A stretch of 64,000 nt of DNA from the NCBI GenBank assembly GCA_027484685.1, contig JAIXSO010000052.1:62001-126000 (forward strand), written 5' to 3'. Source of the stretch: Bacteroidota bacterium. Lineage in GTDB: Bacteria > Bacteroidota > Bacteroidia > UKL13-3. The notes beneath the pieces are model-generated. The model saw only the letters and a program-made list of their open reading frames with translations. It was not told where the DNA came from and did not search any database. This document shows, piece by piece, positions 11,324 to 30,122 of the stretch (the stretch's first letter is position 1; every line of letters starts with the position of its first letter). A program made the position numbers and the translations under genes.

Positions 11324-14047
11324 CTATTTTACAATCATTATTTTTTTATGGAATTGTTGGCCGTTGTTTTCAAAAATTATTTGATACAAACCATCATTGT
11401 TTTCTAAAAGCCTAACTTCCAATACATCATTATTTTTAGTATAAGTTTCAAAATTTACCTCTTTGCCAAACATATCTATTACATTTTTTACTTTTAAATT
11501 TAAATGGTTAAGCTGTTCAATATAAATTGTTCCATTTGACGGATTGGGATAAAGCATTATATTCAGTGCTTCAATGGTTTTAGTTCCGCTTGTTGATTCT
11601 GTAGTAAAGCTCCAACTGTTGTTTTGGCTAATGCCAACAAAGTTGTTTCCTGCCAAATCCTTAAAAGCTCCATTTTGAACCAATACATAAATATTAGCAT
11701 TATTGGCAAATCCTCCGTGTATAATATCAACAGTACTTCCATTTATACTAACCTGATTTGAACTAGCGCTTATGGTGTATTTTAAATTATTGTTTTCGTA
11801 AATTAAAATATTGCCATTTCCTTTGGTAATAGGCTCATTAAAGGTTATTTTTAAATTATTTAGTTTAGATACATTGGTTGCATTATTATTAGGTAATAAT
11901 ACGCTAATGTTTGGTGGAGTTAAATCAATGGTTCCGCTACCTAAATTGGTTTTATAATCTTGGCCATTATTATTATCCCATGTACCATTTCCATTGTTAA
12001 ATGCAGCTGCAAAATTGGTAATGGCATTACTTGGAACACTAACTGTGGTAACCCAATTTTGGCCAACTTTAGTCATGTTGGCATCTAAAATTGGTTTTGT
12101 CCAATTATCAAAACTATAATGCATTATTACTTGGCTTTGGTTAGACAATGAACCAGCATAAGTAACTTGAAGTTGGCTGCCAGGAGCTGGATTTACAGGA
12201 TTATAGTTTACACCACCGGTTGGAATACCACCGCCACCATTGCTACTGCTTTGAAAAAATCCTTCGCCTAAAGCACCAATTAATCCTGGCCCATTTAATA
12301 CATAAATACCTGCGCTACTCGGTGATACCGTAAATGATAAAGTTCCATTGCTAACTGTAATGCTATTTCCAGTTATTGCATCTCTGTAAATGCCATTTGT
12401 TAAACCACTAAAATTAAAAGTCACATTTCCATCTTTTGCTAGGCCAACTGCCACTTCGCTTGTGTTGAATTTTCTAACAAAACCTACACCATTACCTTCA
12501 TTAGTTCCATCCCATCTCCAATTGCCTTTTTGTAATGCAGGAACTGCTTTTCTAATGGCATTTAGTTTTCTAATATGTTTATAAACTAAATGGTTTGGCG
12601 CATTAGCAAATTCATTTCCAAAATAAGCTCTTCCCGTTAAATCTATAGAGTAGTTAATATCATTGCTGTTATGTATATCGGTGTAAGCGCCTTTTTTAAA
12701 TTGTGTTTCAGTTCCATAATAAACACATGGCAATCCTCTCCAGGTAAACATAAAGTTTAGCGCTGCTGCAAGGTTTTCTGCACTGCCATCGTAGCGTTTA
12801 TTCCAATCATTATTTGGGCCAAAATCGTGGTTATCTAAAAACAAAACATTGGTACTTGGGTCTGCATATAAATCATCGTACCTAGCAGCAGCTTTAACTC
12901 CCGAAAAGCCTTCTCCTTTGCCAAATAAATGAAAAGTGCCCATTGCAAAAAAATCAAGAACGGCTAAACCGCTATTGGCTGAGTTTTTGGTGGCTCCTCG
13001 CCAAGTGTACCAATGCGGGTTTATTTCTTCTATTTGATGCAGTTCATGTCTTTTTTGTGCTACTTCACCAAAAAACATCAAGTTGGGATTTACTTGTTTA
13101 AATTTATCTACAAAATAAAGTACATCTCGCTTTGGCATGTGTTTAATTGCATCTAAGCGCATGCCATCAATGCCCATATCAATAAAGGTTTTATAGGCTT
13201 TAAATAAATAATTCCTAACACTATCGCCACCTGTAAAAAAATCTGGTGTATCTCCAGCCAAAGCTCTCCAATACAAATTAGTGGTATCGTCATAACCTTG
13301 TGCAAAACCATTTCCTGATTTATTGAACCAAGCCGCATCGCTAGTGTTTACATAACTTTCCATGCCAGGCCAATTGTAAGCTGCCAAGTTTTGATTGTAA
13401 GGTGCAGGCATTTTAGCAATATTAGCCCTACTCCAAATTTTTCCATCATCTGGATTTGGCGTTAAACCATCATATTGCCAATTTGGGTTGTCGGTTAAAG
13501 TACCGCCATTTATGTTTTTGCCCCAAGGTTGTGTAGGGTCAGTATTATACTTTATTTCAGAGCGTCCTTTTATTCCAAATCTGCCAGCGTGATTTAAAAC
13601 CACATCCAAAAATATTTTAATTCCTTTATTATGTGCCGAGTCTATTAAGTTTTTAAAAGTATAGCCTGGGGATTCTAATCGTGGGTCTACTTTGGTAAAA
13701 TCCCAAGCGTGGTACCCGTGGTAATCAAGTGGACTTCTGTTTTGAACAATTGGGGTAATCCAAATGGCAGTAAATCCTAAATCTTTAATATAATCAAGTT
13801 TTTGAACCAAACCTTTAAAATCGCCTTTCCAAGTTACATCATTGCTGCCAGCATAATTGCCATTATTTGGGTTTCCTGGAAAATAAGAGCACCATTCACT
13901 GGGTCTGTTATTGCTTGGGTCACCATCAAAAAAACGAGTTGTCATTAAAAAGTAAATACTTTCTTCTCTGATATCGGTCTGTCCAAAAACGCGCAGCATG
14001 CTAAAATAAATGGCTACAAACAATAATATAAATTTAAAAAATCTCAT
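11324..14047 (-). CDS. Secreted GH13 alpha-amylase with starch-binding and T9SS sorting domains
   Basis: The protein has 907 residues. A signal peptide (ending RVFGQ) precedes a GH13 catalytic barrel (about 30-590). Predicted catalytic residues are the nucleophile Asp299 in GMRLDAIKH, the acid/base Glu328 in FFGEVAQ and the stabiliser Asp408 in LDNHD. Region I is LDVVLNHAG. A CBM25/26-like module follows at about 605-700 (SFDNWTKPI, FNNGNGTWDNN), then an SbsA/Big_5-like Ig domain at about 705-815. The C-terminal 80 residues (MLYPNPSNG ... KKIMIVK) are a type A T9SS sorting domain. It should hydrolyse starch or glycogen at the cell surface or outside the cell. It is transcribed opposite to tatA. 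Confidence 0.95.
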   Translation of the reverse strand: MRFFKFILLFVAIYFSMLRVFGQTDIREESIYFLMTTRFFDGDPSNNRPSEWCSYFPGNPNNGNYAGSNDVTWKGDFKGLVQKLDYIKDLGFTAIWITPIVQNRSPLDYHGYHAWDFTKVDPRLESPGYTFKNLIDSAHNKGIKIFLDVVLNHAGRFGIKGRSEIKYNTDPTQPWGKNINGGTLTDNPNWQYDGLTPNPDDGKIWSRANIAKMPAPYNQNLAAYNWPGMESYVNTSDAAWFNKSGNGFAQGYDDTTNLYWRALAGDTPDFFTGGDSVRNYLFKAYKTFIDMGIDGMRLDAIKHMPKRDVLYFVDKFKQVNPNLMFFGEVAQKRHELHQIEEINPHWYTWRGATKNSANSGLAVLDFFAMGTFHLFGKGEGFSGVKAAARYDDLYADPSTNVLFLDNHDFGPNNDWNKRYDGSAENLAAALNFMFTWRGLPCVYYGTETQFKKGAYTDIHNSNDINYSIDLTGRAYFGNEFANAPNHLVYKHIRKLNAIRKAVPALQKGNWRWDGTNEGNGVGFVRKFNTSEVAVGLAKDGNVTFNFSGLTNGIYRDAITGNSITVSNGTLSFTVSPSSAGIYVLNGPGLIGALGEGFFQSSSNGGGGIPTGGVNYNPVNPAPGSQLQVTYAGSLSNQSQVIMHYSFDNWTKPILDANMTKVGQNWVTTVSVPSNAITNFAAAFNNGNGTWDNNNGQDYKTNLGSGTIDLTPPNISVLLPNNNATNVSKLNNLKITFNEPITKGNGNILIYENNNLKYTISASSNQVSINGSTVDIIHGGFANNANIYVLVQNGAFKDLAGNNFVGISQNNSWSFTTESTSGTKTIEALNIMLYPNPSNGTIYIEQLNHLNLKVKNVIDMFGKEVNFETYTKNNDVLEVRLLENNDGLYQIIFENNGQQFHKKIMIVK

Positions 14048-14488: not shown

Positions 14489-15913
14489 TTGGAAAATTAT
14501 ATTTCTTACTCGCAAATTAGCGAAGCTTTAAATAGCAAAAAAACCACTGTTACTGCTTTAGTTGACCAATATTTGCAAAATATTGAAAGCAAAAAACATT
14601 TGAATGCTTTTTTAGAGGTGTGGGCCGATGAGGCCAAAGCTGCTGCGCAACAAATTGATAAAAAAATAGCAGATGGCACCGCAGGAAAATTAGCCGGAAT
14701 GGTAATTGGTATTAAAGATAATATTTGTTATAAAAACCATAAAGTTTCAGCTTCGTCAAAAATTATTGAAAACTTTACATCGCTTTATTCAGCTACAGCC
14801 GTTGAGCGTTTATTAGTCGAAGATGCAATTATTATTGGTAGGCTAAATTGTGATGAGTTTGCCATGGGTGCTTCAAACGAAAATTCGGCTTACGGCACTG
14901 TTTTAAACGATTTTGATAATACCAAAGTTTCAGGCGGAAGTTCGGGCGGAACAGCAGTTTCGGTACAGGCACAACTTTGCCATGCAGCATTGGGTAGCGA
15001 TACCGGTGGTTCAATTCGTCAGCCTGCGGCCTTTACAGGTACTTTTGGATATAAGCCAACTTATGGAACCATATCTCGTTGGGGATTAATTGCTTATGCA
15101 AGTAGTTTCGATATTATTGGCCCAGTTACCAAGTCGGTAGATGATACACAACTTTTACTGTCAATAATGGCTGGTGCTGATGAGTACGATGCTACTGCAA
15201 TTCAAGAACCAACAAACGATTTTAGTTTTGATTTAGGAACTCAAAAACAAAGAATAGCGTATATTCAAGAAACCTTAGATATGGAAGGTGTTCAACCAGA
15301 AGTTAAAGAGGCCACATTTAAATTAATTGAAAAATTAAAGGCTGAGGGACACATTGTAGAAGCCATTAGTTTGCCAGAGTTAAGTTATGTAATTCCAGTA
15401 TATTATACCTTAACTACTGCCGAAGCCAGCAGTAATTTATCGCGTTATGCAGGCATGCATTATGGGTTACGTAGCAAAAATGCAGTAGATTTAGAAACCA
15501 CCATTCGTAAATCGAGAACAGAAGGTTTTGGCCCAGAGGTAAAACGCAGAATTATGCTAGGAACGTTTGTGTTAAGTTCAGGCTATTACGATGCCTATTA
15601 CACCAAAGCACAAAAAGTGCGTAGGGTGGTGGCTAATAAAACAGCCGAAATATTTAAAAATTATGATTTTATACTTTCGCCAACTACACCAACTACTGCA
15701 TTTAAAATTGGAGAAAAAAGCAATGATCCAATTCAAATGTATTTAGCTGATATTTTTACTGTTCATGCCAATATTGTTGGCATTCCAGCTATTTCGTTCC
15801 CTTATGGAAATGATAATGAAAATATGCCAATTGGTTTGCAGTTAATGGCTAACCACAAACAAGATGCTAAATTATTAGCAATGGTCAAAAATATAAGACC
15901 AAATATACTTTAG
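14489..15913 (+). CDS. gatA: Aspartyl/glutamyl-tRNA amidotransferase subunit A
   Basis: This is a 474-residue amidase-signature protein. The Ser-cisSer-Lys triad is visible: Lys in IGIKDNIC, cis-Ser in KVSGGSSGGTAV and the nucleophile Ser in GSDTGGSIRQPA. GRLNCDEFAMGASNENSAYG is the GatA-specific segment that separates it from other amidases. It supplies ammonia from glutamine for converting Glu-tRNA(Gln) or Asp-tRNA(Asn) in the GatCAB complex. gatB and gatC are not adjacent. The start is a TTG, since no ATG occurs before conserved sequence. Terminators lie on both sides. Confidence 0.95.
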   Translation: MENYISYSQISEALNSKKTTVTALVDQYLQNIESKKHLNAFLEVWADEAKAAAQQIDKKIADGTAGKLAGMVIGIKDNICYKNHKVSASSKIIENFTSLYSATAVERLLVEDAIIIGRLNCDEFAMGASNENSAYGTVLNDFDNTKVSGGSSGGTAVSVQAQLCHAALGSDTGGSIRQPAAFTGTFGYKPTYGTISRWGLIAYASSFDIIGPVTKSVDDTQLLLSIMAGADEYDATAIQEPTNDFSFDLGTQKQRIAYIQETLDMEGVQPEVKEATFKLIEKLKAEGHIVEAISLPELSYVIPVYYTLTTAEASSNLSRYAGMHYGLRSKNAVDLETTIRKSRTEGFGPEVKRRIMLGTFVLSSGYYDAYYTKAQKVRRVVANKTAEIFKNYDFILSPTTPTTAFKIGEKSNDPIQMYLADIFTVHANIVGIPAISFPYGNDNENMPIGLQLMANHKQDAKLLAMVKNIRPNIL

Positions 15914-15956
15914 GGTGTTTACATCTTAATTACTTATTACAAATTTTTTTAAATTT

Positions 15957-15994
15957 TAGGCTACACTTGCATTCCATCAAGTGTAGCCTATTTT
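15957..15994 (+). terminator. Intrinsic terminator after gatA
   Basis: A perfect 13-bp stem TAGGCTACACTTG / CAAGTGTAGCCTA (15957-15969, 15978-15990) with an 8-base loop is followed by TTTT. The next gene starts only 16 bp after it. Confidence 0.88.
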
Positions 15995-16009: not shown

Positions 16010-17305
16010 ATGAATTTAATATCGAAAAATATAAATACAAATCTTTGCAAGCAAGCTAAAACATTGGCCATTTTGTTCATGTTATTAGTTCCTATTTTTA
16101 CATTTGCCCAAGACCAAGTTTATATTCAACGATTGGCAGCCTTACGCTCACAAACTGAGTTGATTTACAATCCAGAAGTAAAAAAACACATTGAAGCGTA
16201 TATTCAAAATCCGGCTAAAACCCGCGATTTGATTAGTTTGAGTAAATATTATTTCCCCATTTTAGAAAAACATTTAAAAGCTAAAGGTTTACCAACCGAT
16301 TTAAAATATTTGGCTGTTTCTTCATCGGAATTGAACCCAACTTTTGCTAACGGAAATGGAGCAAGTGGCATTTGGACCATGAGTTATACCGTTTCTAAAA
16401 TGTATAAACTGAAAGTAAATACTTATGTGGATGAACGCAGAGATGTAAACAAATCATCATCAGTATTTGCGCAGCATTTTAAAGATTTATATAGTATTTA
16501 TAAGCAATGGCCTTTGGTAATTGGTGCTTATGGATGTTCGCCAATTTCCATGAATAAATGTATTAGAATGGCAGGTAATAGCTTATACTACTGGGATATT
16601 TTTCCGTTTTTACCTACTAATTGCCGCGATTTATACCCACAATTTGTTGCAGCTACTTATATTTTAAATTATTACAAGGAGCATGGCATTAAATCGGCTT
16701 CGGCCGATTTGGTTTACGATAGTGATAGCGTTTTGGTAAATAAATGGCTTTCGTTAAGTCAAATTTCAAACACTTTAGGTGTTGATTTAGATGAACTTAG
16801 AAAATTAAACCCCATATTTAAAAAGGATATTATTCCAATGAGTACCGATGGGTATTATATAAAAATACCTAAAGCGAAAGCGAAATTATTTTATTTATTA
16901 AGCGACAGTGTTTATAAGCCAATTAATACCGATGTATCTCCTATAGTAATTCAAAAAGAAGAACCTGTAGATGTACAAGACCATACCAGTGTGGTGGCCA
17001 CCAACTTGCCCGAAAATATTGACCCTCCTAAGAAAAAAGGAAAAGCTAAAGAGGAGGTAGAACCGAAAAAACAAAAAATTGTAAAGGTTTTTTATGTTGT
17101 AAAACGTGGTGATGTGCTTGGAGATATAGCCGATTGGTTTGACTGCACCACTAGCGATGTAAAAAAATGGAACAAACTTAAATCGAACAATATTCAAAAA
17201 GGAAAGAAACTAACTTTATTTGTAGATGGTAGTAAGTCAGGTTATTATAAAAGAATAAATAAAATGCCTACCAAACAAAAAAAGAAATTGAAACGTAAAG
17301 ATTAA
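16010..17305 (+). CDS. LysM protein with a degenerate MltD-like (SLT) transglycosylase domain
   Basis: The protein has 431 residues with a signal peptide ending TFAQ. The SLT-like domain (about 50-200) keeps the MltD frame: LPTDLKYLAV, GASGIW, the VDERRDV segment and the LVIGAY strand. However, active-site positions differ. The catalytic Glu of the family's (L/I)ESxFNP motif aligns with Ser105 in AVSSSELNP, the Gln of GLWQ is Thr123, and the Asn of AYNAG is Gly175. Glu107, two residues away, is the only nearby acid. LysM-like repeats follow at about 245-290 and at 360-410 (VKRGDVLGDIADWF). Inference: a peptidoglycan-binding, possibly non-catalytic relative of MltD. Confidence 0.85.
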   Translation: MNLISKNINTNLCKQAKTLAILFMLLVPIFTFAQDQVYIQRLAALRSQTELIYNPEVKKHIEAYIQNPAKTRDLISLSKYYFPILEKHLKAKGLPTDLKYLAVSSSELNPTFANGNGASGIWTMSYTVSKMYKLKVNTYVDERRDVNKSSSVFAQHFKDLYSIYKQWPLVIGAYGCSPISMNKCIRMAGNSLYYWDIFPFLPTNCRDLYPQFVAATYILNYYKEHGIKSASADLVYDSDSVLVNKWLSLSQISNTLGVDLDELRKLNPIFKKDIIPMSTDGYYIKIPKAKAKLFYLLSDSVYKPINTDVSPIVIQKEEPVDVQDHTSVVATNLPENIDPPKKKGKAKEEVEPKKQKIVKVFYVVKRGDVLGDIADWFDCTTSDVKKWNKLKSNNIQKGKKLTLFVDGSKSGYYKRINKMPTKQKKKLKRKD

Positions 17306-17990: not shown

Positions 17991-18719
17991 ATGGAATCTC
18001 TAAAAATTTTAATAGTTGAAGATGAGTTTATTATTGCTAGTAATTTAAAGCTAATGCTGGAAGATTTGGGTTATGCACCCTACACTCCTGCTGGTAGTAA
18101 AAAAGAAGCAATGGAAGCCTTGAGAAAATGGGAAATTGACTTGGCTATTTTAGATATTAACTTAAGTGGAAAGCACGAAGGCATTGAAATTGCCAATTAT
18201 ATTAAAGACAATGTGCATATTCCATTTATATTTTTAACTAGTAATGCTGATAAGGAAACCATTAATGAAGCTAAACATACTTTGCCAAAAGCCTATTTAA
18301 TAAAGCCTTTTACCGAAGAAGATATTTATTCGGCTATTGAAATGGCAATGGCTTCATTATTACATGAGCGTGAAAGTGAAGTTGGAAAATTGGCTATATT
18401 AAAAGATAGTATTTTTATCAAATTAGGGTCTAAATATTTTAAAGTAGATATTCCTGATATTTTATATTTTGAAGCTGATGGAAAAATGATGAATGTATAC
18501 ACGGCTCAAAATCAAAAATTTAGTATCAGAACTAGCCTAGAAGCTTTATTAGATAGGCTAAAAGCATATAATTTTATTAGAATCCACAGAAGTTATTGTA
18601 TAAATGCAAAATATTTGGAAATAATTAATGGCGAGTTTGTTACGGTAAAAGATCAACAGATTCCAATTGGTAGGAATTATAGAGATGATTTATTAGCTAA
18701 TATTAAAACCATGAACTAA
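17991..18719 (+). CDS. LytTR-family response regulator (REC-LytTR)
   Basis: This is a 242-residue protein. The receiver domain (about 1-122) has acidic residues in IVEDEF, the phosphoacceptor Asp in LAILDINLSG, Thr in FLTSNADK and Lys in LIKPFTEED. The C-terminal LytTR DNA-binding domain (about 140-240) shows DILYFEADGKMMNVYT and FIRIHRSYCIN. It lies 33 bp before the sensor kinase at 18753 and upstream of the giant T9SS protein operon. Inference: it may control that operon, but no binding site is demonstrable here. Confidence 0.93.
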   Translation: MESLKILIVEDEFIIASNLKLMLEDLGYAPYTPAGSKKEAMEALRKWEIDLAILDINLSGKHEGIEIANYIKDNVHIPFIFLTSNADKETINEAKHTLPKAYLIKPFTEEDIYSAIEMAMASLLHERESEVGKLAILKDSIFIKLGSKYFKVDIPDILYFEADGKMMNVYTAQNQKFSIRTSLEALLDRLKAYNFIRIHRSYCINAKYLEIINGEFVTVKDQQIPIGRNYRDDLLANIKTMN

Positions 18720-18752
18720 ACGAAATTAGATTTCGTATCTTATAAAAAAGTA

Positions 18753-20615
18753 ATGAAAAAAACACTATTGATTGGCTTTTTATTAAGCTTAACATGTTTG
18801 CTAAAAGCCAATGAAATACAGTTTTCAGTAGTGCTAAATAGAGCTAATAAGCTTTCCGCTGTAAGTAAGTCCAACGAGGCTTTGAAATTACTGTGGGATG
18901 GGTTGCAACAATCCGAAAATCAGAAAAATGTTAAGTATGTAGGTTTATTTAGTTTGGCCTTGGCCGATGAGTATTTATACATAAACCAAATAGATTCCAT
19001 AGATTTTTATTATGGGGAGGCGCTTAAAATTTTTGAATCACTTGAGCTAGAAAGTGAACTAATAAGAGCTAAATTAGGTTTGCTTGAATTACCAAGAAGA
19101 ACTAATCCATCAAGTACCATGGATAAGTATTTGGAATTACTAAAAAGAGCAAGGGCCATTAACGATAATGCAACTTATTATTTAATTCTTGAAAAAATAA
19201 TAATGGTAAATAACGGTATGGAGAACTATACCGAAGCATTTGCCCAAACACATGAATGTATAAATTATTATTTAGCTGTTAAAGATACTTTGCGATTAGC
19301 CATTAAATACAGAGAGTTAGGAGCACTTTTTTTTACACATTTTGGAAGCCGGAATGGACTTCCATATGATAAGGATTCTTGTTTTTATTATCATGATAAA
19401 GCAATCAAATTATCGTATAAAATTGGCGCTTATAGGAATTTAGTTTTTGCATACCAACGTTTGAGTTGGATGCTTTATAAAACAGATTTGAGTTTGGCTT
19501 GGAAGTATATAAAAACTGCCGATAGTATTGATAAGTTATATGATATTAAATCTCCTCAATTACCTAATATTATGTCGTTTTCTCTTTTTAAAATGGGTAA
19601 AGTAAAAGAGGCCATTCAAAAATCGAAGGAAGCACTTGACTTAGGGCTGAAGGCAAAGCAACTTTTTATTGGAATTCAAGCTACAGACCAACTGTGTATT
19701 TATTATAAAGCCATAAAAAGATATGATTCTGCTTTGTATTATAATGAAATGTCTCATTTGTTTAACGATAGTATAAGAAGCCAAAGAAATTATAAAGATG
19801 CCGCTAAAATGCAAGCAAAACTTGAGTTTGATAAAGCTAGTTATGAAAAGGAACTAATACAAAAAGAAGAAATTAAGCGCCAAAGTGTTATTCAAAAGTT
19901 TACACTGGCCACCATCATTTTATTACTTATTATTATTATTGTGGTTTATAGGGCTTATTTACATTACAAGAAATCAACAGCAATTATCAAAGCTCAAAAC
20001 GATGAAAAAACAATACTCATAAAAGAAATCCATCATAGGGTGAAAAATAACCTATCTGTTATTTCAGGTATATTAGATTTACAAAAACGTAATATTAAAG
20101 ATGAACAAATGTTGGAAGTTTTTAAGGATGCAAAATCGCGTATTAATAGCATGGCATTGGTTCATAAAAACCTTTACGAGCAAGACGATTTTTCAACCAT
20201 TGATGCCCAAAGTTATTTCGAGAATTTATATATAACTGTAAGTAGTGCTTATAAATTACAAGGTAAAAACATTGTTTATAATATACAATGTAAAAATGTA
20301 AATATTAATTTAGATACGTTAATACCGCTTGCTTTGATTACTAATGAATTGCTTACCAATTCGTTTAAATATGCATTTAACGAAAGAGGTAAAGGCAGGA
20401 TAGAGTTATTACTTAAAAATACAGATACTGGCTTTGAAATGCAATATAGCGATGACGGTATTGGTTATAACTTTGAGGAATTAAAGCCTGAAAATGAAGG
20501 TTTAGGTACACTTTTAATTAACGGACTGATAAAGCAATTAGATGGAAACTTGAAAAAAGAAAATACATCTAATGGATTGGCTTATTTTTTTATGTTTAAA
20601 GGTATTCATTTGTAA
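18753..20615 (+). CDS. Sensor histidine kinase, TPR sensor plus HisKA_2 kinase
   Basis: The protein has 620 residues. A signal peptide (LIGFLLSLTCLLKA) is followed by a periplasmic helical region (about 25-375) with tetratricopeptide-like repeats (for example GKVKEAIQKSKEALDLGLKA). A transmembrane helix lies near 385-405 (TLATIILLLIIIIVVYRAYL). The HisKA_2 phosphoacceptor helix is KEIHHRVKNNLSVISGI (about 420-435), and the ATPase domain has LITNELLTNSFKYAF and YSDDGIGYN. TPR-linked HisKA_2 kinases paired with LytTR regulators are common in Bacteroidota. It lies 135 bp before the giant adhesin gene. Confidence 0.93.
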   Translation: MKKTLLIGFLLSLTCLLKANEIQFSVVLNRANKLSAVSKSNEALKLLWDGLQQSENQKNVKYVGLFSLALADEYLYINQIDSIDFYYGEALKIFESLELESELIRAKLGLLELPRRTNPSSTMDKYLELLKRARAINDNATYYLILEKIIMVNNGMENYTEAFAQTHECINYYLAVKDTLRLAIKYRELGALFFTHFGSRNGLPYDKDSCFYYHDKAIKLSYKIGAYRNLVFAYQRLSWMLYKTDLSLAWKYIKTADSIDKLYDIKSPQLPNIMSFSLFKMGKVKEAIQKSKEALDLGLKAKQLFIGIQATDQLCIYYKAIKRYDSALYYNEMSHLFNDSIRSQRNYKDAAKMQAKLEFDKASYEKELIQKEEIKRQSVIQKFTLATIILLLIIIIVVYRAYLHYKKSTAIIKAQNDEKTILIKEIHHRVKNNLSVISGILDLQKRNIKDEQMLEVFKDAKSRINSMALVHKNLYEQDDFSTIDAQSYFENLYITVSSAYKLQGKNIVYNIQCKNVNINLDTLIPLALITNELLTNSFKYAFNERGKGRIELLLKNTDTGFEMQYSDDGIGYNFEELKPENEGLGTLLINGLIKQLDGNLKKENTSNGLAYFFMFKGIHL

Positions 20616-20750: not shown

Positions 20751-23700
20751 ATGAAACGTTCTAATAGTTTTTTTAAAACAAGTTTTTTTTGTTTTATTTT
20801 CTTTTTCTCAATTAGCAAATGCAGTTTTGCTTATTACCCTATACCTACTTCTGATGTTACATTTAATCTCAATGTATGCGAGGGTTATGTTGATGTAAGA
20901 GCCATTATGAGAGCAGAAGAAACCTGCGATGATGACATTGATTGGGGAAGGCTTTTATATTGGAATGGAACTAGCTATGTTCAAATTGTTCAGTATGGTA
21001 CGGGTTCAATTAATGGAATTAATGGAGCAATTATTTTAGATTTAGGAAATACTACTGAAGGTAACTTAATTTATAGAAATTTTAGATGGTATAATATACC
21101 TCAAAGTGTTATTAATCAAGGACTGGTTCAATTAAAAGTAGATTTTTATTGGGACGGTTGTGGTATCGGTGATCCAGAACAACAATTTTCAAATACCGCT
21201 GTAATTCCTTTAACTAATATTTTGTCTCCAAATTCAGTTTTTGCCACGCAAAATTTATGCAATAAAATAACAATTTCTTGGCAAAATCCTACTGTTCCTT
21301 GTGGCAATGATGCGTTGTTTGAAACACAAATTTATAGAGGTGATTCAATGATAGGAACAGTTTTAGGAACAAGCACTTCCTCCTTTGATGATAACTCTGC
21401 AAGATTAAGCCGTGGGCAAGATTATAATTATAGATTAAGAATAAGGAAGTGGCCAACAAATAATAGTTTTTCATTGTTTAGTCAATATACTTTTGTAACA
21501 GTTGGTAGCTTAAAAGATGCACCAAGTTCACCAACCAATGTCTCCGCATCTACCGATAGATGTGATGGGAAAATAAGAATTACTTGGTCATTTACTGAGG
21601 CTACTCCTACTAATTTTATTATCAATAGGTCTACAAATTCTAATATGACAAATGTTACTGTCTATACGTTAGGAGGCACTAGAAGAGAATTTATTGATAC
21701 AAATAATATTATAAGAGGCAACACCTATTATTATCAAATAAAGGCAATAGATAATTGCAACTCGCACTCTACTTTGTCGGATATAGTGGAGGGAAGTTCT
21801 CCTGGCATTCCATCATCACCATTATTAACCACAATATTAACAGATTCAATAAATAACATAATAACTATTAACTGGAATAGTACCAATTATGAAACTGGTT
21901 ATGAGGTTCAACGATTGCTTAGTTCTGGAGGTGTATCTACTATATTTAATGTTGATCAAGATATAACAACATTTGTTGACAATACTGTTGCATCATGTAA
22001 CTTATATAATTATAGAGTTAAAGCATTAAATGCCTGTTTGAGCAATGGAGGAATTGTTTCAAGTAATAGCAGAAATGCTATTTTAAATCCAAATTTATCA
22101 AATATTTTTAATAGTACAAATTACAAACTAACATGTACCAAAGGATACTTTCCAAACTTTACACAACTAGAATGGAATGTTTCGAACGAGAATTTATTAA
22201 GCAGATATAGAATATTTAGGAAACAACTTGGAAGCAGTTCTGACTCAACCTTAATAGCTGATTTGCCAGCAGGCTCCAACCAATATACTGATGCAACAAG
22301 TGTGGCAGGTGTTCTTTATAAATATACCATTATTGGCTCAACAGTTTGTTCTGGTCAAACACGTTTTTCTAATTTTTCTGAAGATGTTGGATTCAGAAGT
22401 CCAACTGGAGTAATAAATGGAAAAATTACTTATAACGGTGGTTTTGCTGTAGGGGATGCCAGAGTTGTAGCTGCTACAACAGGAACTTTAGCAGGCTCTT
22501 CACTATTGCTAAATGGTACTAATGGGTATTTGCAAATACCACATGCCACCAATATAATGCCAACCAATGAATTTACAATTGAAACTTGGGTTAGGCCCAC
22601 TAACTTAAATAATTCGTTTAGCATTATTGATAAATATAATTCATCGGGGGTGGCAAGTGGTTATAGGTTAATTTATGATGTAAATACTTCTTCATTAATA
22701 TTTTCGGTAATTAATAGTAATGGAATACAACAAGTTTCGGTCAATAATCCTTTTACGGTTGGTAGTTATAAACAAGTTACAGCAGTTTATAAATCAGATA
22801 GTTTATTTTTATATTTAAACGGAGTTTTAGGTGCTACCGCTAAAAATCAAGGAACAAGTGCTAGCATGATTTCAAATTCTCTACCAATTAAAATTGGAAG
22901 TTCTCAACTTGCAGGTAATTGGTTTACTGGAAATATTGATGAACTCAGGGTTTGGAATTATGCCAAAAATAAGACTCAAATTTCTAAAGATTTTAGTAGA
23001 TATGTAAATCCAAACGAAATTGGTTTACAAGCCTATTATACTTTTGATGAAAATGTACCAAGTTTAACAAGTTTTTTTGATGCATCAAATCAAAATAATA
23101 TTTACAACAAAAATGATGGACAAATAATCGGTGGAGTAACCTGGAGTAATAATATTCCTAATACTTCACAATTAGGTTTGGCAGCCTATACTGATTCAAA
23201 TGGGAACTATTCTATCTCCAATATCAGGTATTCATCAAGTGGTCAAAATTTTACTGTTGTACCCTCATTTATATCTAGTGGAGTGGCTCACGCATTTTCA
23301 CCTTCCAATAAAGTTTTGTTTATTGGCGATGGTGCTAATATTCAAAATAATGTCGATTTTACTGACATCAGCTCATTTACAGTTACTGGCAATGTAAGAT
23401 ATTTAAATACTAATTGTCCAGTGAAAGAGGTAAGTATAAAAATTGATGGAAATATTGTTATATCAGGAGGAACTCCTGTAAATACTGATAATAACGGACA
23501 ATTTTCTGTTCAAGTTCCAATTGGGTTTCATGTGATAACTGTAGAAAAGGATGGTCATATTTTTAGTGAAGGTAGATTTCCTGATGTTGGATTATATGAG
23601 TTTCTATCCCCGGTTAACAATATTCAATTTGTTGATAGCACTTTTATTAAGGTTGTTGGAAGAGCTGTTGGTGGATTGACAGAAGGCAATAAAATTGCTG

Positions 23701-26700
23701 GTTTAGGCCGTTCAAAAAACAATATTGGTATTAGTAGAATTATTTTTAGGTCGCAATTATTGAATGGCTGTCGCACAGATACTGTTTATACAAATAAAAA
23801 CACGGGAGAATATACTGCTTATTTGCCTCCTTTAGTTTATACTGTTGAGCCAAAGGTATTAAGTAACTTGGCTCTTAATTTTGGCGTTCAGCCATTGCTT
23901 GATTTAACAAATAGCTTCAATCAAGTGAAAGTAAAAGATTCACTGTTTCAAAATAACGTTTTTAAGCAAATTGACTCTAATTTTTATAATGTGAGAAGGG
24001 ATTTTATTTATAGAACTCCAGCTCAAATACAAGCTTTTCAAATTAAATTGGATAATGATACAACTAGTTTTTTAGGCGATAATGAATATAAGTTTAGTAG
24101 AAACGATAAGGTTATATTTACTGGTAATCCGTTTGGTTATCCAATTTTTTCTGAGTCGAAACAGTATGGCATTCGCTTTATTATTACCGAACCGTACGAA
24201 AATAATGATAGCATAATTCCAGGGTTAGGTGTTTATAAAACTTATTATAAGGACTATGTAAATGGAGCCATGCAAATTGACAATAATTTTGTGTTAGGCG
24301 TTGACACAAATTCAAGCATTAACGTATTGCAGGGTATAGGAGATTATTATTTTGTGGCTGGAGGCCCAAATATTTCTGCTGATCCAATAAATCCTAATTA
24401 TAGTTTTACAAAAACAATTGATGCATTGTTCATTCCACAAGGCAATGTGGCAAGTGTGCCTTGGTTGCCTAATAGCAGTGACCCAATTAGTAAATCATTT
24501 AGATTTATAACTTTTGGAAACAGAGGGCGTGGCAATAATTTTGTTACCAAAGGCCCATCAATGGTTGATTTTATTTTAAGAGATCCTCCTGGTTCACTTA
24601 GTTTTTCAACTTTAGCAAAAGGTCAATCATTTAGTAAGGTTGAGGATATACAATCAGTTTATCAGGGATCACAATCATTGGGGGTGTCAATTTTTAATGG
24701 TGTTCAAGTTAGTACTCCTGGTGGAGATGTTGATGCCGCGAATACAGCAACGGTTACAGCAAATTTTACCCAAACTGCTACTAAAGAAGGAAATAGAGTT
24801 ACCACTACTACATTTAACACTACTGTAACAACTAGTGCCGATCCAGGTTCTGTAGGCTCTCAAGCTGATATTTTTATTGGAAAATCAACCAATATGGTAT
24901 TTGGTTTAACCGATAATATTAGGCTAATTGATACAGCTACTTGTAATTTAGCTGATGTAATTTGTATTGGAAATGATTTTAATGGATATAAAATAGGTAA
25001 AACTACAGGAATGTTCTTAGTGCCTCAAGGAGTAGCCACAACATTTTATTATACAACTGATGAAATTGAAAATATTCAAATTCCTAATTTAATTACTTTA
25101 AGAAATTCAATTTTAGCTAATTCAAAATATAGTAACGGTACTAAAAAATATACCATAGTATTTAATGATGCAAATGATCCAGATTACGATAAAAAATATG
25201 GCAGTAATAATGACGATGCTATTTGGGGTAATGCTGCTTCAACTTTAACACCATCTGTAAGAGATTCTCAAGATAATTTTGGCCAAAGTTACGTGTTTAA
25301 TTTCGATCAATCTCTTGACCCAAAGTATAGAATGTTTCAAACCGATTCTGTAAGAATGCTTAACCAACAAATTGCATTATGGAAACAAGCACTAGCAAGA
25401 AATGAACGTGAAAAATATGGCGTTTTTAGTAATTTATTCCCACCTGACCCCAATGGAACTAATATTAGTTTTGGAAAAGCAACAGTAGCAAAAGATTTTT
25501 CAACCGAGGTTGATTCTACGGAAACTGTGATAGCTGAATTTGATTTTGGTGTGGAGGCTAATTTAGAAATTTATGGTAAATTTGGTGGCAAAGGTGCAGG
25601 CTTACAGTTAAGTGCTGCATATAATTATAGTTCAATAAATTCACAAAGTTTTACGGGTGTTACAAGTACCACTATTTCATATTCGTTAAATGATGGAGAT
25701 GATGATAATTTGCTATCGGTTGATGCAGTTAAATCGCCTCTAGGTAATGGCCATTTATTTAAGTTAAGAGCAGGACAAACTTCTTGCCCGTATGAAGGTG
25801 AAACCTATGCGCATTACTTTAATCCAAGTTTGCCCGATTCTCAAATAAATGCTAGTACTTATTTTGAGGATGGTGAATCAGTTAAACTAGCCGAAGGTAC
25901 AGCACAAATTGATGTTCCTAAAATTGCAATTAGTCCGGCTCGAAAGGTAAATGTGCCTGCCGAAAATGAAGCTACTTTTATTTTAACTTTAAAAAATGAA
26001 AGTGAGGCTAATGTAGATAATACTTATGATTTAAGATTGGTGGAAGCTTCAAATCCGTATGGGGCAATTGTTTCAATTGATGGACAAAGTCCTAATAGAA
26101 GTTTTGATGTACCTGGAGCACCCGGTGGTTCAAGCATTACCAAAACGGTTTCTATAAAAAGAGGGCCTATTTATTATAAATACGATAGCTTATTGTTTAT
26201 TTTTAAATCGCAATGCGATGATAATATTATGGACTCTGCCTATGTTAGTGTAGCATTTTTACCCACTTGTACCAAAGCTAACATTACCAATATTGACGAT
26301 AAATGGGTACTTAATTCTTCATTCAAAGACTCTTTACCTGTAGTTATAAGTAATTATGATTACAATTTTGGTGGTTTTAGTAATATTGAATTACAATACA
26401 AACAAGCTTCAAAAAGTGTTTGGAATGCAGTAAAAACCTTTTATAAGGATACAAGCGATATTACTTTAGCTATTCCAACCGATAAAGCTTATACCTCTTT
26501 TATTTGGAATGTAGCAGAAGTAGCTGATGGTCCATACGACTTAAGAGTAGCAAGTACATGCAGTGCACCTGGTTACGATGATGTGAAACTATATTCTACT
26601 CCTATTACTGGAATTATTGATAGGGTAAATCCTCATCCTTTTGGAACACCTTCGCCTGCTGATGGTATTTTATCGCCTAACGATGATATTAGTATTCAAT

Positions 26701-29700
26701 TCAATGAATCAATAGACCCTAGCACTATTACATTTAATAACTTTGATTTAAGAGGTGTTTTAAATGGTAGTCCAGTTAGGAATAGTACTAGTTTGTATTT
26801 TGATGGTAACAGCGATAATGTAGAAATTGAAAGTGGACTTTCATTACAAAAACGTTCGTTTACTGTGGAGTTTTGGGCTAAACGCAAACAATTAAATAGT
26901 AGGACAATTTTATTTTCTCAAGGAAATCAAGCTGAACAAAGTATTTCAATTGGCTTTGATGAAAATAATAGAATGATGTTCAATATGAACGCATCTACTA
27001 TTTTATCTAATACTTCATATACCGATACTGTTAATTTTGTTCATTACGCAGTTTCATATAATTACGAAAATCAAACTGTAGTATTGTATGTAAATGGTGT
27101 AGTTGCCAATTCTTCCTCACCAAATTTATATGAAGTGTATGAAGGTTCTGGTAAAGTATTTTTTGGTAAATTGAGTTATAGTTCTGGATTTGACTTTAAA
27201 GGTAATTTAGCTGAAATTAGGTTATGGAATACAGCTAGGAGTTTAACGCAAGTATTATCAAATATGAACAAGCAGCTTACAGGAACAGAAGCTGGAATTG
27301 TAAGCAATTGGCGATTAGATGAAGCCAATGGTGCTATAGCTAAAGATATAGTTAGAAGTAGAAATGGTTTTATTAATAATGCTACTTGGAGTTTAACACC
27401 AAGCGGTAAATCATTGGCATTTAATGGAGTAAACGGCTATTTAAATTATCCTGCCTCTACAGCGGTTATTTCAAAAGAAATGGACTTTACCATTGAATTT
27501 TGGTTTAAGTCAAATAACAATAATGGTATTCAAACTTTACTTTCAAATGGACGAGGTGATAATAATGAACCAAGTGCTGAATATAAATGGTGGATTGGTT
27601 CTAATACTTCTGGAAATATATTGGTAAAGCATAATGGCAATCAATTTTTAGCTACCAATAGTAATTATTTTGATGGCAATTGGCATCATTTTGCATTGGT
27701 TTTAAAACGTAGTTCTAGCTTAACTGCATTCATTGATGGCAATCAACAAAATAGCATTCCTGCAAGTAGTTTTGGTCAGTTTGGTGGTTCAAAATTATGG
27801 TTAGGAGCACGTAATTTAAATCCAATTCAAACCACAGATTCAACCGATTTATATTTTAATGGTTTGATTGATGAGTTTAGATTTTGGAATGTATCGCGAT
27901 TACAAGAGCAAATAAAAAATGGCTATCAATACAGAATTTTGGGTAATGAAAGTGGTTTGATTGCCTATATTCCTTTTGAAGACTATACAACTGTATTGGG
28001 CGTTCCCATTTTATCTCAAAGCAATAAAGAATTTATAAGTAATAATAATTTTGTTTTAGTGAATGGAGCTGGTTTTTCAAACGAAACACCTTTAATTAAA
28101 TTGCCATTACCAAATCAAAGTATAGCATTTACTTATTCAATTAATAATGATAAAATAGTACTAACACCTACTACCTCGCAAGAGTTAATTGAAAATGTTA
28201 CTTTAGATATTACCGTAAAAAATATTTTAGATAAGAATGGTAATATCATGCAATCACCAAAAACATGGATTGCCTATATCAATAAAAATCAAGTAAAATG
28301 GCAACAACAAGAATTTACCTTTACTAAAAAAGCAGGTGCTAGCTTAACCTTTAATGCTAATATAGTTAATTTAGGAGGAGCGCTTAAGCAATGGAATATT
28401 TCAAACCTGCCTTCATGGTTAACGGTTAGCAACTCATCAGGCACAGTAAGTCCTAATAGTTCAATTCAAGTTCAATTTACGGTTGATCCTAATGTGAATA
28501 TTGGTAATTATGAACAAGCTTTACAACTAACAACGGATTTTGGTTTTGCCGAACTATTGTACATAAAATTAAAAGTTAGTGCCGATGCACCAGCAAGTTG
28601 GAGTTTAAATCCATCAGGTTTTAATTATTCAATGAATATTGTTGCACAACTAAAAGTAAATAACATAAGTTTAACAAATACTGAGTCGAAATTAGCTGCC
28701 TTTGTTGGTAACCAATGCAGAGGTGTTGCTAATTTGCAATATTTGCCACAGTACGATAAATATTTAGCATTTATAACCATATACAGCAATAGTAATAATA
28801 CCATTGAAAAGTTAGACTTTAAAATATGGAATGCCGATGCTGGTAAAATTCATACCGATATTGATACTAGCTTATATTTTACTCCTGATGCTTTGATTGG
28901 AAACTTTGCCACTCCTCAAGTATTTAATGCTTCTGATAAATTAACACGTTATGTACCATTAAATGCAGGTTGGAACTGGATTTCTTTTAATTTATTAAAT
29001 AGTGATTCTACCAAATTAAATCAACTATTAGGAAACCTAACTTTAAACAATGGTTCTCAATTAAAAAACAATATGGAGTTCGCATCTTTTGATGTTCAAA
29101 ATGGATGGTCGGGTAACTTAGTTGGTATCAATGCAGGTATTAAACCAGAAAAATCGTACTTATTAAATATTGGTAATGTAGATACACTTGTGTTAAAAGG
29201 TATTGAGGTTAATCCTAGTTTACGTCCTATAAATTTAGTTCCTGGTTGGAATTGGATTGGTTTTCCATCGCAACGAAACTTAACTGTTAACGAAGCTTTT
29301 GGAAATTATTCAGCTACACATGGCGATGTTATCAAAAACCAAACACAATTTGCCATTTACGATAGTATAATGGGCTGGGTTGGTAGTTTAATTACCATGA
29401 AACCTAATGTGGGTTTTTTATATAATACCACAGTTAATGGAAACTTCACTTATCCAAGAACTGCTATTTTTGGAAAAAAAGGAATTGATGCAGAAAATAT
29501 CACTTCAAAATATTGGCAAGCTAATGCATATGCTTACGCTGAAAATACCAATATTATTAGTACTGTAAACATTTGTAATAAATTACTTGAAAATGGAAAT
29601 TGGTTATTAGGTGGTTTTGTAAATAATGAGTTAAGAGGTTTTGCAAAAGCTCAGTTTATTAATAATCAATATGCTTATTTCTTAACCATTGCTGGCAATA

Positions 29701-30122
29701 ATAATGAGCCTATTACATTTAAATTATTAGATGAAACTTCTGGAAAAGTTTATGACTTAAACGAAAATTTAGCATACAAGCCAAATGCTTTATTAGGAAG
29801 TATTAGCAGTCCATTTAACTTAACTGCTACCAGCTTAATTCCTTGTAACGATAACAATACTTTTGATAATGATTATTATAAATTTTATCCTATTCCAGCA
29901 TCAAATAAATTAAATGTTGAGTTAAATTTAAATGATGTTCAATCGGTGCAAATACATATTTATGATATAGCAGGAAAGTCGGTGTATAGCACAGAAGAGA
30001 AGCAACTTAATAAAGGTATTCAAGTGATAGGCTGCGATATTACAAATATTCAAAACGGTATCTACATAGCTGAAGTTATGGCCAATAACAATGTTTACAG
30101 ACATAAAATAATTAAAAACTAA
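20751..30122 (+). CDS. Giant multidomain T9SS surface protein (FN3, LamG, BACON-like, type A sorting domain)
   Basis: The protein has 3123 residues with a signal peptide. Domains by eye are: several fibronectin III-like domains (about 165-560); a LamG/concanavalin-like domain (about 585-740, FTIETWVRP); a carboxypeptidase-regulatory-like fold (about 870-945); a long middle region I cannot assign (about 950-1950); and an SbsA/Big_5-like Ig half (1957-2010). Next come two LamG domains (2010-2165, 2217-2385; FTVEFWAKR, FTIEFWFKS) and the other half of the Ig fold (about 2455-2510). A BACON-like domain (2513-2613) follows. The repeat module described in the findings occurs at 2615-2730 and 2920-3027, separated by a region with two GWNWI(S/G)F motifs. 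The last 80 residues (KFYPIPASNKLNVEL ... HKIIKN) are a type A T9SS sorting domain. Inference: cell-surface adhesin or matrix protein. The next gene is 39 bp downstream. Confidence 0.93.
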   Translation: MKRSNSFFKTSFFCFIFFFSISKCSFAYYPIPTSDVTFNLNVCEGYVDVRAIMRAEETCDDDIDWGRLLYWNGTSYVQIVQYGTGSINGINGAIILDLGNTTEGNLIYRNFRWYNIPQSVINQGLVQLKVDFYWDGCGIGDPEQQFSNTAVIPLTNILSPNSVFATQNLCNKITISWQNPTVPCGNDALFETQIYRGDSMIGTVLGTSTSSFDDNSARLSRGQDYNYRLRIRKWPTNNSFSLFSQYTFVTVGSLKDAPSSPTNVSASTDRCDGKIRITWSFTEATPTNFIINRSTNSNMTNVTVYTLGGTRREFIDTNNIIRGNTYYYQIKAIDNCNSHSTLSDIVEGSSPGIPSSPLLTTILTDSINNIITINWNSTNYETGYEVQRLLSSGGVSTIFNVDQDITTFVDNTVASCNLYNYRVKALNACLSNGGIVSSNSRNAILNPNLSNIFNSTNYKLTCTKGYFPNFTQLEWNVSNENLLSRYRIFRKQLGSSSDSTLIADLPAGSNQYTDATSVAGVLYKYTIIGSTVCSGQTRFSNFSEDVGFRSPTGVINGKITYNGGFAVGDARVVAATTGTLAGSSLLLNGTNGYLQIPHATNIMPTNEFTIETWVRPTNLNNSFSIIDKYNSSGVASGYRLIYDVNTSSLIFSVINSNGIQQVSVNNPFTVGSYKQVTAVYKSDSLFLYLNGVLGATAKNQGTSASMISNSLPIKIGSSQLAGNWFTGNIDELRVWNYAKNKTQISKDFSRYVNPNEIGLQAYYTFDENVPSLTSFFDASNQNNIYNKNDGQIIGGVTWSNNIPNTSQLGLAAYTDSNGNYSISNIRYSSSGQNFTVVPSFISSGVAHAFSPSNKVLFIGDGANIQNNVDFTDISSFTVTGNVRYLNTNCPVKEVSIKIDGNIVISGGTPVNTDNNGQFSVQVPIGFHVITVEKDGHIFSEGRFPDVGLYEFLSPVNNIQFVDSTFIKVVGRAVGGLTEGNKIAGLGRSKNNIGISRIIFRSQLLNGCRTDTVYTNKNTGEYTAYLPPLVYTVEPKVLSNLALNFGVQPLLDLTNSFNQVKVKDSLFQNNVFKQIDSNFYNVRRDFIYRTPAQIQAFQIKLDNDTTSFLGDNEYKFSRNDKVIFTGNPFGYPIFSESKQYGIRFIITEPYENNDSIIPGLGVYKTYYKDYVNGAMQIDNNFVLGVDTNSSINVLQGIGDYYFVAGGPNISADPINPNYSFTKTIDALFIPQGNVASVPWLPNSSDPISKSFRFITFGNRGRGNNFVTKGPSMVDFILRDPPGSLSFSTLAKGQSFSKVEDIQSVYQGSQSLGVSIFNGVQVSTPGGDVDAANTATVTANFTQTATKEGNRVTTTTFNTTVTTSADPGSVGSQADIFIGKSTNMVFGLTDNIRLIDTATCNLADVICIGNDFNGYKIGKTTGMFLVPQGVATTFYYTTDEIENIQIPNLITLRNSILANSKYSNGTKKYTIVFNDANDPDYDKKYGSNNDDAIWGNAASTLTPSVRDSQDNFGQSYVFNFDQSLDPKYRMFQTDSVRMLNQQIALWKQALARNEREKYGVFSNLFPPDPNGTNISFGKATVAKDFSTEVDSTETVIAEFDFGVEANLEIYGKFGGKGAGLQLSAAYNYSSINSQSFTGVTSTTISYSLNDGDDDNLLSVDAVKSPLGNGHLFKLRAGQTSCPYEGETYAHYFNPSLPDSQINASTYFEDGESVKLAEGTAQIDVPKIAISPARKVNVPAENEATFILTLKNESEANVDNTYDLRLVEASNPYGAIVSIDGQSPNRSFDVPGAPGGSSITKTVSIKRGPIYYKYDSLLFIFKSQCDDNIMDSAYVSVAFLPTCTKANITNIDDKWVLNSSFKDSLPVVISNYDYNFGGFSNIELQYKQASKSVWNAVKTFYKDTSDITLAIPTDKAYTSFIWNVAEVADGPYDLRVASTCSAPGYDDVKLYSTPITGIIDRVNPHPFGTPSPADGILSPNDDISIQFNESIDPSTITFNNFDLRGVLNGSPVRNSTSLYFDGNSDNVEIESGLSLQKRSFTVEFWAKRKQLNSRTILFSQGNQAEQSISIGFDENNRMMFNMNASTILSNTSYTDTVNFVHYAVSYNYENQTVVLYVNGVVANSSSPNLYEVYEGSGKVFFGKLSYSSGFDFKGNLAEIRLWNTARSLTQVLSNMNKQLTGTEAGIVSNWRLDEANGAIAKDIVRSRNGFINNATWSLTPSGKSLAFNGVNGYLNYPASTAVISKEMDFTIEFWFKSNNNNGIQTLLSNGRGDNNEPSAEYKWWIGSNTSGNILVKHNGNQFLATNSNYFDGNWHHFALVLKRSSSLTAFIDGNQQNSIPASSFGQFGGSKLWLGARNLNPIQTTDSTDLYFNGLIDEFRFWNVSRLQEQIKNGYQYRILGNESGLIAYIPFEDYTTVLGVPILSQSNKEFISNNNFVLVNGAGFSNETPLIKLPLPNQSIAFTYSINNDKIVLTPTTSQELIENVTLDITVKNILDKNGNIMQSPKTWIAYINKNQVKWQQQEFTFTKKAGASLTFNANIVNLGGALKQWNISNLPSWLTVSNSSGTVSPNSSIQVQFTVDPNVNIGNYEQALQLTTDFGFAELLYIKLKVSADAPASWSLNPSGFNYSMNIVAQLKVNNISLTNTESKLAAFVGNQCRGVANLQYLPQYDKYLAFITIYSNSNNTIEKLDFKIWNADAGKIHTDIDTSLYFTPDALIGNFATPQVFNASDKLTRYVPLNAGWNWISFNLLNSDSTKLNQLLGNLTLNNGSQLKNNMEFASFDVQNGWSGNLVGINAGIKPEKSYLLNIGNVDTLVLKGIEVNPSLRPINLVPGWNWIGFPSQRNLTVNEAFGNYSATHGDVIKNQTQFAIYDSIMGWVGSLITMKPNVGFLYNTTVNGNFTYPRTAIFGKKGIDAENITSKYWQANAYAYAENTNIISTVNICNKLLENGNWLLGGFVNNELRGFAKAQFINNQYAYFLTIAGNNNEPITFKLLDETSGKVYDLNENLAYKPNALLGSISSPFNLTATSLIPCNDNNTFDNDYYKFYPIPASNKLNVELNLNDVQSVQIHIYDIAGKSVYSTEEKQLNKGIQVIGCDITNIQNGIYIAEVMANNNVYRHKIIKN

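Follow-up and report, generated by a model that had tools for sequence, protein, structure and literature searches.

The gene at 16010..17305 on the forward strand of the window (the whole 64,000-nucleotide stretch analysed; the gene coordinates include the stop codon) is a complete, MltD-like gene of 431 codons for amino acids, identified from the open reading frame list and Pfam matches to SLT and LysM, and it is degenerate at the positions on which catalysis by lytic transglycosylases depends. With a probability of roughly 70%, the protein is a pseudoenzyme that derives from an MltD-type lytic transglycosylase (which we take to be family 1D), is exported to the periplasm and is bound to peptidoglycan there as a scaffold or regulator. 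The initial annotation had already proposed an exported, peptidoglycan-binding pseudoenzyme, and this proposal is supported by the loss of four motif residues, the age and conservation of the family, purifying selection on the gene and the presence of an active paralogue, peptidoglycan binding being suggested by the LysM domains.

The protein begins with a hydrophobic signal segment (residues 1-33, 16010..16108, + strand) that ends in FTFAQ, as read by eye, and no lipobox cysteine was seen by eye in this N-terminal segment. It is followed by an SLT fold, that of lytic transglycosylases and goose lysozyme, at residues 68-230 (16211..16699, +), where Pfam places SLT (PF01464) at residues 86-190 (E = 2.9e-10) and where the catalytic residues are lost. 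A first LysM-like domain at residues 238-296 (16721..16897, +) is indicated by the secondary structure of the AlphaFold2 model and by alignment to MltD. Beyond a disordered linker at 315-351 lies a C-terminal LysM domain at residues 357-406 (17078..17227, +), seen both in the model and by Pfam (residues 362-403, E = 9.8e-12). The C-terminal tail (17228..17302, +) is modelled as a helical hairpin (helices 407-418 and 421-430), ends in GYYKRINKMPTKQKKKLKRKD and is conserved in the order. The mean pLDDT of the model is 86.8. The top PDB match by sequence is 8rhe (E = 5e-22), which the fold search identifies as P. aeruginosa MltD, and the top structural match of the model, in VIA-align, is 8rhe_B (Z = 23.8, rmsd 3.3 over 252 residues). 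Overlay on a known SLT fold thus agrees with the Pfam domains in assigning the protein an MltD-like transglycosylase fold, and the layout of an SLT fold with C-terminal LysM domains is that of MltD. The protein scores 104 bits with the NCBIfam model for murein transglycosylase D, whose cut-off is 508.

The initial annotation had placed Ser105, Thr123 and Gly175 at the positions of the catalytic Glu, the GLWQ Gln and the AYN Asn. All four MAFFT modes align Glu125 of E. coli K-12 MltD with Ser105 (codon 16322..16324, +), Gln143 with Thr123 (16376..16378, +) and Asn196 with Gly175 (16532..16534, +), and the ungapped register against 8rhe is identical (VIESAYNP against VSSSELNP). Alignment with MltD-type transglycosylases also reveals a fourth loss, absent from the earlier list: Leu208 (16631..16633, +) occupies the position of the Tyr in the fourth motif, TRGYVP (E. 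coli Tyr230). In an alignment of 87 rows, Glu, Gln and Asn are each present in 44/44 active rows at the motif positions, and Tyr in 43/44. The surrounding frame is intact, as had been claimed, with P95, S106, G117, G120, W122 and D141-E142-R143 all kept. Further positions, including 112, 114, 118, 128, 179 and 205, are near-constant in the active rows and free in the degenerate rows. In PMC10931528, the substitutions E125A and E125K are reported to abolish the function of E. coli MltD. Because these substitutions do so, loss of the equivalent Glu most likely entails loss of activity here.

Full-length orthologues were found by search in 56 of the 59 genomes of the host order, and all 56 sequences were read; the three genomes without one are 81-88% complete. 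None of the 56 carries Glu at position 105, Asn at 175 or Tyr at 208, and only one has Gln at 123. The residue at 105 varies among S, A, L, I and V. Sequencing error or chance is excluded, because the losses are common to orthologues in 56 genomes. A named collection includes Bacteroidetes bacterium UKL13-3 (CP012155), which places the order among UKL13-3-like Bacteroidota; of the 80 loci kept from it, 48 were degenerate and the other 32 active, and none was intermediate. For 11 genomes of the order, the sequence of an active paralogue with Glu, Gln and Asn was read; in the remaining ones its status is given by match scores only. LysM was detected by Pfam in 39 of 41 degenerate sequences.

Purifying selection acts on the degenerate gene. 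Over 36 pairs for each of the two genes, from nine genomes of the genus, pairwise NG86 dN/dS ranges from 0.013 to 0.176 for this gene and from 0.034 to 0.127 for the active paralogue, these ratios being rough since many dS values exceed 1. The fold is kept, with its catalytic residues lost throughout the orthologues and dN/dS well below 1. Among 24 orthologues, the mean majority is 0.75 in the SLT domain, 0.75 in the tail and 0.42 in the linker. The tail was considered as a hallmark of all degenerate copies and rejected, the motif GYYKRINKMPTKQKKKLKRKD being present in 21 of 43 degenerate rows against 2 of 44 active rows.

Degenerate copies are not confined to the order. Among 296 class genomes searched, those with at least two matches were taken (44 in the follow-up) and their further copies were read. 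Counting also copies found in other searches of this analysis, a copy without the Glu is present in 37 genomes of 11 other Bacteroidia families (f9, f12, f23, f28, f30, f33, f37, f50, f51, f52 and f59). These copies were picked for the absent Glu, and only the losses of Asn (0/37 retain it) and Tyr (0/37) are independent of that choice; Gln is still present in 12/37, which brings its retention to 13/93 degenerate copies overall. The second copy is active in seven genomes. For single-match genomes, the A4 profile was searched in 50 genomes, one per family, and 20 of the matching places were examined, of which 18 were second or further copies; three of these 18 are degenerate (f30, f50 and f51). 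In a separate group of five loci resembling lytic transglycosylases, Glu and Gln are kept but the AYN Asn is replaced by Tyr or Gln.

A single origin of the degenerate lineage, old in Bacteroidia, is likely, though not proven, from the sequence comparisons. When the catalytic columns are dropped, 40 degenerate rows of a 74-row tree fall on one side of a branch with 100/100 support. An 87-row tree, also without these columns, splits 43 degenerate from 44 active rows with an SH-aLRT of 98, a support that may be affected by thinning by hand (29 names dropped, mostly near copies, together with the outgroup). AU tests reject the family-wise joining of active and degenerate copies in f28 (P = 0.0003), f33 (P = 2e-9) and f1 (P = 0.0013), and also a two-origin grouping in which the copies unlinked to the amidase gene described below join the active copies of f28, f33 and f23 (P = 0.0056). 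It is unlikely, though the idea carries some weight, that the degenerate copies arose several times from different duplicates and that their single clade is a long-branch artefact. Several degenerate rows in the 87-row tree do have very long branches, and the clade may be partly due to long-branch attraction because the degenerate rows evolve fast; the AU tests, which argue against several origins, share this pull through the model.

Gene order also bears on this question. Directly upstream of the degenerate gene lies an amidase gene (14489..15913, +; Pfam Amidase, E = 1e-133), for which "GatA-like" is our own naming, preceded by a frame that, from its sequence, we take to be TatA-like. The amidase gene is the neighbour in 46 of the 48 named degenerate loci, and in the remaining two the TatA-like gene lies directly before the degenerate gene, the amidase gene being missing between them. 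By family, it adjoins the degenerate gene in 4/4 loci of f1 g4, g5 and g12 taken together, in 6/6 of f52, 4/4 of f37 and 2/3 of f59. No amidase gene was found close to the degenerate copies of f28, f33, f23, f9, f12, f30, f50 and f51, nor close to those of f1 g14 (0/5, in short loci). In other families an active copy occupies this slot, for example at ten loci, and in the loci read the amidase gene does not adjoin the active copies of the order. The slot after the amidase gene is thus common to active and inactive versions, its occupant depending on the family. This pattern favors several independent origins and argues for a more complex history of the degenerate copies. Such a history concerns the origin of the protein and is compatible with its being a wall-bound pseudoenzyme.

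Between the amidase gene and the degenerate gene there is a conserved element, TGTTTACATCTTAATTACTT (15916..15935, +), which lies directly upstream of the degenerate gene in 27 of the 58 genomes searched. Matches occur in 32/58 genomes of the order, 27 of them directly upstream by our reading of the coordinates, against 16 scattered matches, by our count, for the backward control. The element is nearly single-copy per genome. It was also considered as a regulon box; a relaxed 17-base form of TGTTTACATCTTAATTACTT with one mismatch allowed gives three matches in the whole genome, of which the one at the degenerate gene is exact, and the backward control gives two, so the element is not a widespread box. 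A terminator-like hairpin of 13 pairs follows at 15957..15990 (+); it is the same in two close relatives and not clearly present in others. Elsewhere in the window, 11324-14047 encodes an alpha-amylase that carries a CBM53-type domain together with a Por_Secre_tail sorting domain, which points to type IX secretion. A LytTR response regulator and, after it, a HisKA_2 histidine kinase are encoded at 17991-20615, and a repeat-containing frame of 3123 residues, with a likely C-terminal sorting tail judged by eye, lies at 20751-30122.

As to what the protein does, a non-catalytic mode of action is the likeliest. It is improbable that other residues in the same cleft provide a catalysis of a new kind acting on glycans. 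In favor of it, conservation of the SLT domain within the order is strong, with 36 invariant columns out of 163 among 24 sequences; against it, the acidic residues E86, D97, D141, E142 and D145 are conserved to about the same or a higher degree in the active rows, and D159 alone is clearly higher in the degenerate rows (0.77 against 0.50). The degenerate rows were searched for an acid newly conserved in the cleft, and no new invariant one was found.

The initial annotation had allowed that the enzyme might be active, with Glu107 as a displaced catalytic Glu. This is quite improbable. Glu107 is present in 9/9 genomes of the genus that were read and lies two residues from the catalytic position, but an acidic residue (Glu or Asp) stands there in just 25 of the 56 degenerate sequences of the order and in 0 of the 37 outside it. 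The Gln, Asn and Tyr partners are also lost, and active enzymes carry Ala at position 107. The judgement rests on conservation and not on distances in the model. That the gene is simply decaying without function is scarcely credible: a free range of residues (S, A, L, I, V, M, C, N and T) does occur at the catalytic positions, but the dN/dS range given above, the presence of the gene in 56/59 genomes and the conservation of both the tail and the upstream element all speak against it.

A wall-bound pseudoenzyme could work as follows. From the sequence we infer that the protein is exported, binds the wall and is inactive. Because the SLT fold and the LysM domains are kept, it most likely sits on peptidoglycan, where the LysM domains would hold it on the wall; with Glu, Gln, Asn and Tyr lost, it most likely does not cleave glycan strands, judging from the E. 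coli Glu125 mutants and from conservation in the family. The degenerate lineage coexists with an active MltD paralogue, whose gene lies at another place in the genome. The remodelled SLT domain might offer a surface for docking or for capping glycan strands and in this way position or restrain cell-wall enzymes, perhaps the active paralogue itself. Binding of glycan within the SLT cleft is doubtful, because many cleft residues beyond the catalytic ones have been lost.

More tentatively, and with somewhat less than even odds, the non-catalytic lytic transglycosylases of Bacteroidia may have an ancient single origin and, each paired with an active MltD in the same cell, make up a layer dedicated to controlling or scaffolding the cleavage of glycan strands. 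They would then be to the SLT fold what the inactive regulators known from other bacteria are to LytM. No description of an inactive MltD-like family in Bacteroidota was recognised in the literature searched, most subscription papers being beyond reach. Pfam labels 39 of 41 degenerate proteins as transglycosylase SLT, and they would thus probably be entered as lytic enzymes by automatic annotation. Should they be inactive, counts of lytic transglycosylases are too high for many Bacteroidia, and one level of wall regulation may have gone unnoticed. Among LytM proteins, inactive members proved to be important regulators of wall cleavage, and an equivalent with the SLT fold would be a directly testable parallel.

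The closest known system is MltD itself. The proteins of E. coli and of P. aeruginosa (structures 8rhe, 8rhf and 8rhi) share with the 431-residue protein the SLT fold, the LysM domains and their arrangement along the chain. In the latter protein, unlike in MltD, the catalytic Glu, Gln, Asn and Tyr are all replaced, and the family score falls short of the cut-off. The active paralogue in the same genome (G000 C63:50846) is homologous over SLT and LysM with 37% identity and, in contrast to the degenerate protein, bears the full Glu, Gln and Asn set in VIESALN, GMWQF and ASYNCG. The lysozyme superfamily offers a precedent in alpha-lactalbumin, of the animal c-type lineage, whose fold is kept for a non-catalytic regulatory role, and among wall proteins EnvC is an inactive LytM-domain regulator. 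E. coli MltD is an outer-membrane lipoprotein according to PMC10931528, whereas no lipobox was seen in the protein described here. The nearest likeness in mode of action is to inactive LytM regulators of the DipM type, in which a degenerate hydrolase domain controls active wall enzymes including lytic transglycosylases; the inactive wall-hydrolase domain of DipM can bind and stimulate a lytic transglycosylase, according to PMC10336132. The fold of DipM is that of a LytM endopeptidase, unrelated to SLT, and the analogy is thus one of mode and not of family.
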